Positions 3,426 through 53,195 of a DNA stretch of 64,000 bases are shown here, piece after piece (positions within the stretch are counted from its first letter, which is position 1; each line of letters begins with the position of its first letter). The stretch is from Rhizobium sp. Q54. GTDB taxonomy: Bacteria; Bacteroidota; Bacteroidia; Flavobacteriales; Flavobacteriaceae. The position numbers and the translations under genes are program-made. The stretch lies in contig CALQAH020000002.1 in assembly GCA_943328505.2 (NCBI GenBank), positions 1 to 64,000 of the forward strand, given 5' to 3'. The notes beneath the pieces are model-generated. The model saw only the letters and a program-made list of their open reading frames with translations, searched no databases and had not been told where the DNA came from.

Positions 3426-3441
3426 TGGTACTGCAATTGCA

Positions 3442-3516
3442 TTAGCCCAGATAGCAGTGGAAATCTCCCGATTTTTTATCGGGAATTGCAACGGATAGCT
3501 GGAAATAGCTTCTAAT
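3442..3516 (+). repeat. Interspersed flavobacterial repeat, copy A
   Basis: A 75-base sequence with TTAGCCC at its left end, an internal perfect hairpin (TCCCGAT, loop, ATCGGGA), then GCAACGG, ATAGC, GGAAA and AGCTTCTAA. The same ordered blocks occur in inverted orientation at 53112-53186. It lies between the acetyltransferase and superoxide dismutase genes. From memory, related sequences are common between genes of Flavobacterium; that is recollection, not a search. Confidence 0.65.
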
Positions 3517-3617: not shown

Positions 3618-4226
3618 ATGGCTTTTGAATTACCACAATTACCTTATGCATACGATGCATTAGAACCACATATTGATGCAAGAACGATGGAAATACATCA
3701 TACGAAACATCATAACGCCTATACAACCAACCTAAACGCTGCTGTTACTGGCACCGATATGGAAGGAAAAACAATTGAAAACATTTTGATTAATTTAGAC
3801 AAAACAAACGCAGCAGTTCGTAATAATGGTGGTGGTTTTTACAATCACAATCTGTACTGGGCTGTAATGTCACCAAATGGCGGCGGTTTACCAACTGGTG
3901 ATTTATTGAATGCAATTGAAAAAGATTTTGGAACCTTTGACGAATTCAAAGCTCGCTTTGCCAAAGCAGGCGCAACACAGTTTGGTTCTGGATGGGCATG
4001 GCTTTGTGTTCATGAAGGCGGAAAATTAGAGGTTTGTGGAACACCAAATCAAGACAATCCATTGATGCCAGGTGTTGGTTGTGGAGGAACTCCTATTTTA
4101 GGAATGGATGTATGGGAACATGCTTATTATTTACATTATCAAAATCGTCGTCCTGATTATATTGAAGCCTTCTTTAGTCTAATTAATTGGTCTGAAGTTT
4201 CTAGACGTTTTGCAGTTGAGAAATAA
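3618..4226 (+). CDS. sodA: Superoxide dismutase, Fe/Mn family
   Basis: 202 residues, the usual length for the family. It converts superoxide to oxygen and hydrogen peroxide in the cytoplasm. Metal-ligand regions are visible: HHTKHHNAY (H27 region), NHNLYW, and the signature [18 protein letters not shown], which provides Asp and His ligands. It stands alone, with its own promoter and a hairpin terminator. Whether the metal is Mn, Fe or either cannot be settled by reading, so the sodA symbol is a convention here; sodB would be equally defensible. Confidence 0.95.
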
Positions 4227-4281: not shown

Positions 4282-4284
4282 AAA

Positions 4285-4357
4285 ATTAAACAGGCGGAAT
4301 CTCTTCCGCCTGTTTGCCCCAAATCTACCATAAACTTAACCTACTTAATTCTATGGA
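4285..4357 (-). ncRNA. Small RNA copy 1 (same 5' domain, divergent terminator)
   Basis: On the minus strand the sequence begins CCATAG, contains GTAGGTTAAGTTTATGG and then GATTTGGGGC, and ends in a perfect 12-base-pair hairpin (AAACAGGCGGAA with TTCCGCCTGTTT, 4288-4315). A -7 box TAAATTTG (4362-4369) lies just upstream. There is no open reading frame of note. The 5' domain is almost identical to the two tandem copies at 4472 and 4632, but the terminator hairpin has an unrelated sequence. The shared 5' domain with a conserved hairpin position argues for a functional RNA rather than chance. The exact 5' end is inferred from the promoter. Confidence 0.65.
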
Positions 4358-4471
4358 AATACAAATTTAACAACAATGTGTTAAAAAAGGTGTTTTTTTT
4401 ACAAATAAATTGGGATGATAGTCAAATGAGGGTAGAAATACTCCTATTAAAATAGTTTTTTAGGGAAATAA

Positions 4472-4547
4472 AATAAAAAAGGTGAAAATTTCTTTTCACC
4501 CTTTTTGCCCCAAATCTACCATAAACTTAACCTACTAATACTATGGT
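4472..4547 (-). ncRNA. Small RNA copy 2
   Basis: On the minus strand a near-ideal Bacteroidota promoter (TTTG at 4577-4580, 17 bases, TATATTTG at 4552-4559) precedes an RNA of about 75 bases. The body can form a stem ACCATA/TATGGT around a loop containing GTAGGTTAAG, followed by a single-stranded GATTTGGGGC. It ends in a terminator: GGTGAAAA pairs with TTTTCACC (4481-4500) with a flanking A/T extension, then a T-rich tract. It differs from copy 3 at one base in the RNA body. No function is recognised; one possible known family is the Flavo-1 RNA motif, which I could not test. Confidence 0.75.
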
Positions 4548-4631
4548 GGAACAAATATAAAGTCATTGAGAAGGTACAAACAAATTTTTCAGACCAACTA
4601 CCGTTAAACTCGTTAATGTGAGATTTTATAA

Positions 4632-4707
4632 AATAAAAAAGGTGAAAATTTCTTTTCACCCTTTTTGCCCCAAATCTACCATAAACTTAACCTACTAATG
4701 CTATGGT
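4632..4707 (-). ncRNA. Small RNA copy 3
   Basis: The first copy downstream of the purF-like gene, and nearly identical to copy 2: same promoter (-33 TTTG at 4737-4740, -7 TATATTTG at 4712-4719), same predicted 5' stem, same terminator hairpin (4641-4660). The single body difference is in the variable spacer before GTAGGTTAAG. Duplicated promoters suggest that dosage or paralogue redundancy matters. Confidence 0.75.
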
Positions 4708-4797
4708 GGAACAAATATAAAGTCATTGAGAAGGTACAAACAAATTTTTCAGACCAACAACCGTAATTCTCGTTAAAAAGCATAAAATGTTAAAATC

Positions 4798-6696
4798 TTA
4801 ATAAGCACGAGCATCTTTGCCTTCATAAAAATTCATAAATGCTTTATTTACAACACGATTTCCTCCTGGTGTTGGATAATCCCCGGTAAAATACCAATCC
4901 CCTAAATTTTTAGGGCAAGCAATGTGTAAGTTGTCAACCGTTTGAAAAATAATTTTTACTTGCGCTTTTATATCTTCCGAACTTAACATTTCGGCTATTT
5001 TATCGGATACTTCTTGATCTGTAAAGGGTTTGTAAATTTCGGTAACATAATTTACAACTTCATCATCTTTATAATTTTCTTGCGATTTGCATTTTAAATA
5101 AACCTCATCTACTATATGATATACGTTTCTTTCTTTTAAAAGTTCTAATGTGGCTTTAAAAGCAATAAGTCCTTCTAATTTTGCCATATCAATTCCATAA
5201 CAATCTGGATATCGAATTTGTGGTGCTGATGAAACTACAATAATGCTTTTAGGATTTAATCTATCCATCATTTTGAGGATGCTTTTCTTTAATGTAGTTC
5301 CTCGAACAATGCTATCGTCAATAATTACTAAATTATCGGTAGATTTAATCACGCCATAAGTAACATCATAAACGTGGGCCACCAAATCATCTCTACTGCT
5401 ATCCTCTGTTATAAAAGTTCTCAATTTGGCGTCCTTTATAGCAACTTTCTCCGTTCTTATTTTAACCGATAATATTTCTTCTAATTTTTCTTTAGTAAGC
5501 ACTTTCCGATTATCGAGAATGAATTTGTTTTTTCTTTGATTTAAAAAATCTTGAGCCGCTTCCACTATTCCGTAAAATGATGTTTCCGCAGTATTGGGAA
5601 TATAGGAGAAAACAGTATTGTCTGTATCATTGTCAATAGCATCTAATACCGCTGGCAAAATTAGTTTGCCCAAGTGTTTTCTTTCTTGATAAATTTCGGC
5701 ATCACTACCTCGTGAAAAATAGATGCGCTCAAAAGAACATGCTTTTTTAATGGTTGGAGTAATGATTTCCTCTTGTGTTATTTTACCATTTTTTTTAATG
5801 ATTAAGGCATGACCGGGATTTAACTCTTCCACTTTTTCAAATGGCACATTGAAAACCGTTTGAATAACGGGTCTTTCCGATGCTACTACAACTATTTCAT
5901 CATCTTGATAAAAATAAGTTGGTCTAATTCCAGCTGGATCTCTAAACACAAATGCATCGCCATGTCCTAATAAACCTGCCATTGCGTATCCACCATCCCA
6001 ACCTCGTGAAGCACGTTTTAAAATTTTAGCAATGTCTAATTTTTCTGCAATTATTGGTGAGGCTTCTCTTTTAGAAAGTCCGTTATTTTTACATTCTTGA
6101 TATAAATCGGTAACTTCATCATCGAGAAAATGACCTATTTTTTCCATAACTGTAACCGTATCCGCCATTTCTTTTGGATGCTGTCCCAATTCTACTAAAC
6201 TATTAAAAAGCTCTGTAACATTGGTCATATTAAAGTTTCCAGCCAAAATCAAATTTCGGTGCATCCAATTATTTTGACGCAAAAAAGGGTGTACACTTTC
6301 CAAACTGTTTTTCCCAAAAGTTCCATAACGCACATGGCCTAAAAATAATTCACCGATATAGGGAATATTCGCTTTTTGCAAAGCAACATTATCCTGATAT
6401 TCTGGATGCGTCAATAATTCCTCATTGATTCTAGCATTGATTTGAGCAAAAACATCTTGTATTGCTTGTGCTTGATTCGAACGAACGCGGCTAATGTATC
6501 TTTCGCCTGCCTCTACATCTAACTTAATAGATGCAAATCCTGCACCATCTTGACCTCGATTGTGTTGCTTTTCCATTAAGAGATACATTTTTTGAATCCC
6601 GTAAAAAGCTGTGCCGTATTTTTCTTTATAGAATTCTAACGGTTTTTTTAATCGTAAAAGAGCTATTCCACATTCGTGTTTTACTGCATCGCTCAT
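4798..6696 (-). CDS. purF: Amidophosphoribosyltransferase, long PurF-family form
   Basis: 632 residues, longer than the roughly 500 of classical PurF. The N-terminal class II glutamine amidotransferase domain starts MSDAVKHECGIAL; Cys9 would become the nucleophile after removal of a short propeptide. NRGQDGAG and GHVRYGTFG are further glutaminase motifs. The phosphoribosyltransferase half carries the PRPP loop VIIDDSIVRGTT near residue 460. The enzyme family makes phosphoribosylamine from PRPP and glutamine, the first step of purine synthesis. Bacteroidota often carry this long version in addition to a standard PurF, so its role may differ. It lies next to a PfkB kinase on the same strand, 144 bases downstream of it. 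Confidence 0.85.
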   Translation of the reverse strand: MSDAVKHECGIALLRLKKPLEFYKEKYGTAFYGIQKMYLLMEKQHNRGQDGAGFASIKLDVEAGERYISRVRSNQAQAIQDVFAQINARINEELLTHPEYQDNVALQKANIPYIGELFLGHVRYGTFGKNSLESVHPFLRQNNWMHRNLILAGNFNMTNVTELFNSLVELGQHPKEMADTVTVMEKIGHFLDDEVTDLYQECKNNGLSKREASPIIAEKLDIAKILKRASRGWDGGYAMAGLLGHGDAFVFRDPAGIRPTYFYQDDEIVVVASERPVIQTVFNVPFEKVEELNPGHALIIKKNGKITQEEIITPTIKKACSFERIYFSRGSDAEIYQERKHLGKLILPAVLDAIDNDTDNTVFSYIPNTAETSFYGIVEAAQDFLNQRKNKFILDNRKVLTKEKLEEILSVKIRTEKVAIKDAKLRTFITEDSSRDDLVAHVYDVTYGVIKSTDNLVIIDDSIVRGTTLKKSILKMMDRLNPKSIIVVSSAPQIRYPDCYGIDMAKLEGLIAFKATLELLKERNVYHIVDEVYLKCKSQENYKDDEVVNYVTEIYKPFTDQEVSDKIAEMLSSEDIKAQVKIIFQTVDNLHIACPKNLGDWYFTGDYPTPGGNRVVNKAFMNFYEGKDARAY

Positions 6697-36942: not shown

Positions 36943-37103
36943 CAGCCCTAAACTGCACATTTGCGAATATAGTGGGTTTAGTGGTAAATGAAACAAGCAA
37001 AATTTGCATAAGCCTTATTGAAAGAAACGAGCAATTGCAAATAATTTAACAAATAAGTGGAGACAGACCCCACTATAAAAAACGAGGCGTATTCCGAAAA
37101 GCC
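36943..37103 (+). repeat. attC-like site B (degenerate)
   Basis: The left half (CCAGCCC, GCACATTTGCG, ATAT, GGGTTTAG, GGTAA) matches that of site C at 37522 in most positions. The right half keeps CCCACTATA, complementary to TATAGTGGG, but lacks the GTTAGC end. 37051-37100 also resembles 36571-36620, before cassette 1. Confidence 0.5.
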
Positions 37104-37137
37104 TTACGAGTAGGAACAAAATTTAAAAAATAAAAAT

Positions 37138-37743: not shown

Positions 37744-38673
37744 ATGAATAAGTTTTCTTTTTTATTATTGATTTCTCTTTCCTTTTTTGCTCAAACCAAA
37801 GGTGTTGTGGTTGACGAATCGGGGAACCCTATTCCGTATGTGAATATTTGGGTTGAAAATGAAAATATCGGAACGACTTCCGAAGAAAATGGTGAGTTTT
37901 CAATTGCTAATGCTGAAAATAAAACCCTCGTTTTTTCAGCTGTTGGATTTGAAACATTAAAAGCCAAATTAAACGAATCTGGAAAAGTAGTTTTAAAAAC
38001 AATCGCCTATCAATTAGAAGAGGTAGTAATTCAAAAACGAATTGGAAAAGACCAAATAGAAATTGGAAAGTTTAAAAAAAGAGATGTTAAAATGTTTTAC
38101 GGGACAGGTATCCAGCCTTCAATATTAGCCAAATTTATAGCACCAACACAGGACATAAAAACACATCCTTTCGTCGATAATATTACTTTTTCAACCTTTT
38201 CAAATATCAATAATGCGAAAATAAAAATTCGGTTTTATGAAGTGGCACAAGACGGAAGCCCAGGTTTGGATTATTCAGATGACATAATTGTTGTTTCGGT
38301 TAAGAACGGCAAACAAAACAATAGACTTGATTTAAAAGATAAAAATATAATAATTCCAGATAAAGGTTTGTTTATTGCCTTTGAATGGATGATTATAGAG
38401 GAAAATAAATATACTTACGAATATACTCTTGATGAAGGAAACGGTAAAGTACAAGGAGGTCTACCGGATTCCAAAAAGAAAATTTATAAAGACGGCTTGA
38501 GTTACTGCCCATTAATTGGCACTATTCCTTCGGATTTAAGCACTTCCTGGCATTTCCTTGCAGGTAAATGGGTTTCAAGAAAAATTCACAAAAAAACAGA
38601 GAATTTTAATTTTGAGGATAAATATGATAATAAGTTTGGCGAATTAGCAATTAAAATAACCCTTACCAATTAA
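37744..38673 (+). CDS. Carboxypeptidase-like regulatory domain protein (cassette 3)
   Basis: 309 residues. Signal peptide MNKFSFLLLISLSFFAQ. Residues 18-95 are a CarboxypepD_reg-like beta-sandwich (GVVVDESGNPIPYVNIWVEN, GTTSEENGEFSI, LVFSAVGFETLKAKL) as found at the N-terminus of TonB-dependent receptors, but no barrel follows. The rest (KIKIRFYEVAQDGSPGLDY and further) is another beta-sandwich. Probably an outer-membrane-associated or periplasmic binding protein. It is the longest cassette of the array. Confidence 0.75.
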   Translation: MNKFSFLLLISLSFFAQTKGVVVDESGNPIPYVNIWVENENIGTTSEENGEFSIANAENKTLVFSAVGFETLKAKLNESGKVVLKTIAYQLEEVVIQKRIGKDQIEIGKFKKRDVKMFYGTGIQPSILAKFIAPTQDIKTHPFVDNITFSTFSNINNAKIKIRFYEVAQDGSPGLDYSDDIIVVSVKNGKQNNRLDLKDKNIIIPDKGLFIAFEWMIIEENKYTYEYTLDEGNGKVQGGLPDSKKKIYKDGLSYCPLIGTIPSDLSTSWHFLAGKWVSRKIHKKTENFNFEDKYDNKFGELAIKITLTN

Positions 38674-53111: not shown

Positions 53112-53186
53112 TTTTAGAAGCTGTTTCCTGCTATCGGCTTTATCTCTCCGTTGCACTACGAGGATACCGCCTCTATCAGGGCTAAA
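53112..53186 (-). repeat. Interspersed flavobacterial repeat, copy B
   Basis: On the minus strand: TTAGCCC, GATAG, GG, ATCC, GCAACGG, GATAGC, GGAAA, AGCTTCTAA in the same order as copy A (3442-3516). It lies between the PBP stop and the CoA transferase start and shows that the CDS downstream cannot start before it. Confidence 0.65.
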
Positions 53187-53195
53187 AATTACCTT

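Follow-up and report, generated by a model that had tools for sequence, protein, structure and literature searches.

The closest described counterpart to the RNA considered here is FopS of Bacteroides thetaiotaomicron, a multi-copy RNA of ~65-70 nt with a Bacteroidetes-type promoter, a 5' seed and a terminator, which is described as repressing translation by pairing at start regions, for example that of susC in Bacteroides (PMC11697453). Transcriptomics has detected the sRNAs Rfp1-89 in F. psychrophilum, of which Rfp11, 13, 15 and 18 are reported as conserved in other species (PMC9723704), and sRNA candidates have been reported for F. columnare (PMC5395568). In the open-access literature we recognized no paper describing the RNA presented below, and its transcript may already be among the sRNAs listed for F. 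psychrophilum (PMC9723704) or F. columnare (PMC5395568).

We examined a window of 64,000 nucleotides (the whole stretch of DNA analyzed) in which the initial annotation had proposed a triplicated small RNA gene on the minus strand. The three units were borne out by a covariance model built from 64 distinct copies, the three window units among them, which scored 101.2 bits at 4711-4626, 101.2 bits at 4551-4466 and 84.1 bits at 4361-4278, far above the 17.2 bits of the next best place in the window. The features of the locus are listed here; promoter boxes, 5' hairpin, loop seed and linker were read from the sequence.

3618-4226, plus strand: sod (Fe/Mn superoxide dismutase, by Pfam), the conserved left neighbor.
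4282-4356, minus strand: sRNA copy 1 (class B), with the 5' domain of copies 2 and 3 and a different terminator stem (AAACAGGCGGAA/TTCCGCCTGTTT).
4362-4369, minus strand: -7 box of the copy 1 promoter, TAAATTTG.
4402-4430, minus strand: class B upstream element CTCATTTGACTATCATCCCAATTTATTTG, also upstream of the matching paralogue in relatives.
4475-4547, minus strand: sRNA copy 2 (class A), tandem duplicate of copy 3 at 160 bp.
4552-4580, minus strand: copy 2 promoter, TTTG at 4580-4577 and TATATTTG at 4559-4552.
4589-4621, minus strand: copy 2 operator, matrix score 16.4.
4635-4707, minus strand: sRNA copy 3 (class A), ends predicted.
4707-4702 and 4683-4678, minus strand: copy 3 5' hairpin, ACCATA/TATGGT.
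4698-4686, minus strand: copy 3 loop seed, TTAGTAGGTTAAG.
4676-4667, minus strand: copy 3 linker, GATTTGGGGC.
4666-4635, minus strand: copy 3 terminator, from sequence and folding.
4712-4740, minus strand: copy 3 promoter, TTTG at 4740-4737, a 17-nt spacer and TATATTTG at 4719-4712; the box is conserved in relatives.
4749-4781, minus strand: copy 3 direct-repeat operator, matrix score 19.0.
4798-6696, minus strand: purF-like gene (class II glutamine amidotransferase), the conserved right neighbor; weak Pfam matches, named by eye.

A 46-nt block is common to all three units, and each has a promoter box of the form TAnnTTTG and a terminator hairpin with a U-rich stretch after it. The predicted sRNA, whose expression we infer, is ~75-80 nt long, with an exposed G-rich linker between a 5' hairpin and the terminator. 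The stem ACCATA/TATGGT (CCATA/TATGG in copy 1), the loop GTAGGTTAAG and the GATTTGGGGC that follows are as first annotated, and so is the promoter of copies 2 and 3, with TTTG, 17 bases and TATATTTG. These two copies had been called exact tandem duplicates of 160 bases; the spacing of 160 bp holds, but the repeat spans 149 nt at 97% identity. Copy 1 does keep the 5' domain and has another terminator, as had been noted, and its difference extends upstream beyond that claim, where the operator is absent (score -10). Lacking the shared operator and having a conserved upstream element of its own, copy 1 reads as an older paralogue under different control. A loose pattern of this class B element, CTCATTTGCCTATCATYCCAATATATTT, matched 23 of 332 copies, a few of these matches being spurious. 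For the putative sRNA as a whole, duplication is plausibly a sign of dosage.

No Rfam 15 family reached its gathering score on the units. The family that had been suggested for testing, Flavo-1 (RF01705), is likewise an RNA element of this bacterial group, yet it does not match the sRNA units. Flavo-1 elements do occur elsewhere in the window, at 3440-3509 (plus strand), just upstream of sod, and at 53120-53187 (minus strand). A DUF805 RNA motif (RF03081, 69.5 bits) lies at 37052-37120 (plus strand), ~670 bases before a TonB-receptor-like frame (match at 37795).

The strongest of the weak Rfam matches was FopS (RF04319), and several features invite placing the RNA in the FopS/GibS family of Bacteroides sRNAs. 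FopS is the best match by score (26.7 and 21.5 bits in the window), the locus has several paralogous copies that each have a TAnnTTTG-type promoter, and, like FopS as described, the RNA has a predicted 5' seed and a terminator (PMC11697453). However, these scores fall far short of the gathering score of 56, and the FopS model matched neither the window's own genome over the cut-off nor, at E 0.01, any of nine genomes of the same genus or family. The local alignment score of the 5' part with the FopS R1' seed was reached by 257 of 1500 shuffles, and by 296 of 1500 when the family consensus was used. The RNA is therefore no closer to FopS than many shuffles are; homology was rejected, and family membership appears very doubtful. 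The two also differ in organization: FopS is described as comprising intergenic, antisense and 3'-UTR members, whereas the RNA described here occurs as tandem copies at one old locus. Its G-rich linker, moreover, takes part in the predicted pairing, and the predicted target is a CAP lipoprotein, not SusC. Rfp18, compared by description, is reported to pair by a third stem-loop, whereas the window RNA folds into two. Weak FopS-model matches were seen in other families (L135, L136, L137, L138, L139 and L149), several of them having, by eye, a CATAG..TTAG..GGTTAA-like 5' part and a terminator; FopS-type sRNAs may thus be spread more widely than the Bacteroidaceae.

The gene family extends well beyond this strain, with strong homologues in most of the related genomes searched. 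Within the window's family, the covariance model matched 243 of 299 genomes, representing 196 of 236 genera, with 1-7 matches each (E 0.01), and a DNA query matched 79 of 101 sampled genomes of the genus at E 1e-10 or better, often in tandem. An exact 34-base match was found in at least 80 named records, and the genera among the matches listed include Flavobacterium, Algibacter, Winogradskyella, Tamlana, Mariniflexile and Gaetbulibacter, which points to Flavobacteriaceae as the family in question. A sample of the class gave matches in 11 of 295 genomes, six strong ones in the same genus and five weak ones outside the family; three same-family genomes of this sample had no match to the model. 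The five weak matches were rejected as homologues, four being little more than a terminator and one a chance match. In a sample of the order outside the family the best match had an E of 0.006, and the four matches that were read look like chance. Phage and plasmid records gave no match at E 0.1, and viral contigs none to an exact 26-base pattern. One record titled as a Lentimicrobium MAG (L182) has the exact sRNA core and is perhaps a misbinned flavobacterial contig. The chromosomal place is also kept, and comparison of the sod-purF interval in relatives showed that the sRNA usually still sits there: both neighbors were found at 27 of 30 loci from the family, 23 of 30 from the genus and 66 of 80 from named records among the matches listed, counts that come from short flanks, in which a missed sod or purF is not proof of absence.

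The three RNAs fold 4.2-4.9 SD below dinucleotide shuffles. Across 332 distinct copies, ACCATAACATTAGTAGGTTAAGTTTATGGTAGATTTGGGGCAAAAA is almost fixed in the 323 that were anchored, and the TAnnTTTG box (at least 5 of 6 letters) is likewise present in 323. The terminator hairpin was found in 324 of 325 copies (seven of the 332 were dropped) with 58 different 5' arms, in agreement with the earlier claim that its structure is conserved where the sequence is not. Covariation in the stems, which had been proposed as a check, is a divided matter: the terminator fold is kept, but two-sided change was seen at only one of the seven pairs of the 5' stem, in 1 of 64 sequences, and covariation could not be shown there because the stem hardly varies. 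A nearly invariant 5' domain next to a variable terminator is the pattern that would result if the 5' domain pairs with other molecules and the terminator needs only its shape. A small peptide encoded from the ATG that lies in the stem's 3' arm was also considered and set aside. The frame has 8 codons in 94 of 303 copies and stays open to the end of the stretch read in 155 of 303, and such widely differing lengths make peptide coding unlikely.

A candidate partner for the 5' domain was found at a locus (L431) where the operator precedes the gene of a CAP-domain lipoprotein and the mRNA leader nearly complements the sRNA 5' domain (-45.1 kcal/mol). The CAP domain (PF00188) was confirmed on two orthologues of this lipoprotein, and relatives of the protein were found in 80 of 121 genomes of the genus (protein search, E 1e-10). 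All 30 of the nearest CAP loci have the leader site, and the duplexes predicted for the 27 leaders parsed ranged from -32.6 to -47.6 kcal/mol; of the 1676 start regions used as controls, taken from stretches of three genomes, one reached -33 kcal/mol and none -35. Twenty more distant CAP loci chosen from the list comprised 5 with the leader site, 14 without it and one that was unreadable, and all 14 genomes whose CAP locus is without the site have the sRNA. The site reads AAAG..GTTTGCCCCACAATCTACTTTAAACTTAAACTACTA..ATG and stands directly before the start codon. It consists of a hairpin loop and tail complementary to the linker and loop of the sRNA. The hairpin had a C-rich stretch at its tip in 37 of 37 folded sites (-2.6 to -7.5 kcal/mol), and its arms co-vary in several lineages (TTTAAAG/CTTTAAA, ATTAAGG/CTTTAAT and AATAAAG/CTTTATT). 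The RNA thus has its own predicted promoter and an intrinsic terminator in an intergenic region, together with extended complementarity, conserved across species, to an mRNA encoded elsewhere. The suggestion of a trans-acting RNA with the loop as its seed gains support from these results, in that the loop, and even more the linker GATTTGGGGC, is complementary to a conserved mRNA leader.

Complementarity over almost the whole 5' domain is also what an inverted duplication leaves, and the leaders might then be decayed, functionless inverted copies of the sRNA gene. We regard this as highly improbable, since 35 of the 50 CAP loci read have retained the site in the orientation that leads into the same gene, and since the leader has features that the sRNA lacks, namely a TTAAAG/CTTTAA stem with compensatory changes and extra loop bases.

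A model of the leader site found two further sites in the window's own genome (C15:11-58 and C52:17832-17879, E 1.5e-12). The C15 site reads as an operator-like repeat, the leader and then ATGAAAGC at the contig end; its operator score is 5.2, with the repeat spaced 21 instead of 20 bp. A protein search did not find the CAP protein in this genome, which a CAP gene lying beyond the end of C15 would explain. In the window itself, the only places where the model exceeded 4 bits were antisense to the three sRNA copies, and a search of stretches from three genomes (2.0 Mb in total) gave nothing convincing (best E 0.13). In a genome of another genus (G318), a perfect 34-base complement of one of that genome's own sRNA copies occurs around position 1500 of L492 (minus strand), upstream of a 40-codon frame and with no sRNA terminator beside it.

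Other targets were sought as well. A SusC target, by analogy with FopS, gained no clear support: 15 TonB/SusC start regions of the window's genome and 13 homologues, one of these from the same genome, had no consistent complementarity. One SusC leader of this genome (L275) has an 8-nt complement to the sRNA, and the other SusC leaders were not outstanding. An unbiased seed search over 1676 start regions gave a modest excess of complements to TAGGTTA and GGGCAAA and no clear gene class. Strong duplexes were in excess, most of all at start regions, and this excess became weak once the start codon was left out (104 vs. 28-87 in 10 shuffles at -20; 31 vs. 6-35 at -22). Two single candidates were seen: a uvrC-like leader (named by eye) in the window's genome (L372, G000:C1, ~16204), where a 12-nt perfect complement of the sRNA loop, TTAACCTACTAA, ends 9 bases before the start codon, and a pgk-like leader.

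Some CAP loci have more than one site. Two tandem leader sites stand before one gene at four loci (L445, L459, L462 and L464), and at two others (L440, 779-826; L441, 1246-1293) a second site lies behind the CAP gene, in which 15 nt (TTTGCCCCAAATCTA) are perfectly complementary to the sRNA linker; these second sites are a possible sponge. Both kinds of duplication would suit a CAP leader that acts mainly as a sponge, its C-rich hairpins titrating the sRNA from other targets, as would the presence of the sRNA in many genera beyond those examined for the CAP target. Most of the loci read, however, have one leader site, placed at the start codon, for which translation control is the simplest reading, and a mainly titrating role appears improbable.

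Target and sRNA also share an operator, in which GC-n-TTT-n-ATC is repeated directly at a distance of 20 bp ahead of the promoter. Autocorrelation was strongest at an offset of 20 (0.092), the next value being 0.038 at 21. The operator matrix scored at least 12 at 280 of 323 sRNA copies (236 of them were used to train it) and ahead of 20 of 27 CAP genes, vs. 5 of 1676 controls. Of the seven CAP genes scoring below 12, four have by eye a repeat at 21 bp and three are without a repeat within 150 bases. In the window plus 400 kb of its own genome, the copy 3 operator was the sole site scoring at least 18, and the reversed-sequence control gave none. Searching 41 genomes of the genus gave 211 places with the repeat pattern, sRNA genes included, vs. 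99 in the backward control. Among the places read, the pattern precedes, besides the CAP lipoprotein gene (L431), genes for an LRR protein (L418), a DUF5916 protein (L420), a REC-LytTR regulator (L404) and large secreted-looking proteins without a Pfam match (L415 and L428); other places read, within genes or ahead of unrelated ones, look like chance. Across 101 genomes of the genus, 65 had both the sRNA (E 1e-10) and the CAP gene, 14 the sRNA only, 1 the CAP gene only and 21 neither, counts that ignore shared ancestry and in which the sRNA-only class includes the window's own genome.

Promoters under LytTR control are preceded by a pair of direct repeats spaced by about two helical turns. The sRNA operator has this layout, with two direct repeats at a spacing of 20 bp, and it is probably read by a LytTR-type response regulator. 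In two relatives the sRNA-type operator precedes a response regulator gene, one with Pfam REC and LytTR domains in L404 and a look-alike in L427; this is a candidate regulator, possibly self-regulated. In the window's genome, the LytTR orthologue is not preceded by the operator. LhrC of Listeria and the csRNAs of Streptococcus are controlled by response regulators, occur in tandem or multiple copies and have upstream direct repeats and short exposed seeds. By this general description they share copies, repeats and seeds with the window sRNA, but their host groups and targets are unrelated to those found here, and the regulator of the present locus is only proposed.

Taken together, these comparisons lead us to favor, with a probability of about 0.72, the reading that the units are paralogous genes for trans-acting antisense sRNAs that repress the CAP lipoprotein mRNA and are co-regulated with it. 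The linker GAUUUGGGGCAAA would pair with the C-rich loop of the leader hairpin in the CAP mRNA, and the hairpin loop UUAGUAGGUUAAG with the stretch directly before the CAP start codon. Pairing would spread from the linker and leader loop to the start region and cover the start site, most likely blocking translation, a mechanism modeled on the repression of susC by FopS in Bacteroides (PMC11697453). Copies 2 and 3, though not copy 1, stand behind the operator that the target gene also carries, so that regulator, sRNA and target could form an incoherent feed-forward loop; a dosage buffer would also fit, and extra sRNA copies would raise the dose.

That pairing represses rather than activates is what we infer. 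The conserved leader hairpin is one that pairing could open, and activation of the CAP mRNA, by opening an inhibitory hairpin or stabilizing the transcript, would have a parallel in Rfp18 of F. psychrophilum, described as needed for full stationary-phase mRNA of two proteases (PMC9723704). However, the predicted duplex also extends over the bases leading up to the start codon, and the hairpin, which has little stability of its own (-2.6 to -7.5 kcal/mol), is located upstream of the start site; an activating role therefore seems about as improbable as the sponge. A broader scheme is tentative and on balance unlikely, albeit less so than either of these: mutual regulation across the family, in which the tandem sRNA silences the CAP mRNA, duplicated leader and 3' hairpins sponge the sRNA, both sides answer to the same LytTR-type operator and the leader perhaps arose from an inverted copy of the sRNA gene. 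If this scheme were true, the pair of sRNA and CAP leader would be a central switch of a cell-surface regulon in this bacterial family.

To our knowledge, the regulatory RNAs of this phylum are little known outside gut Bacteroides. The sRNA described here stands out by its age and constancy and by its fixed chromosomal position, and it has a precise predicted partner and an operator in common with it. The sRNA and CAP pair may offer an entry point to the post-transcriptional control of surface proteins in these bacteria and to the question of why some sRNAs stay in tandem.
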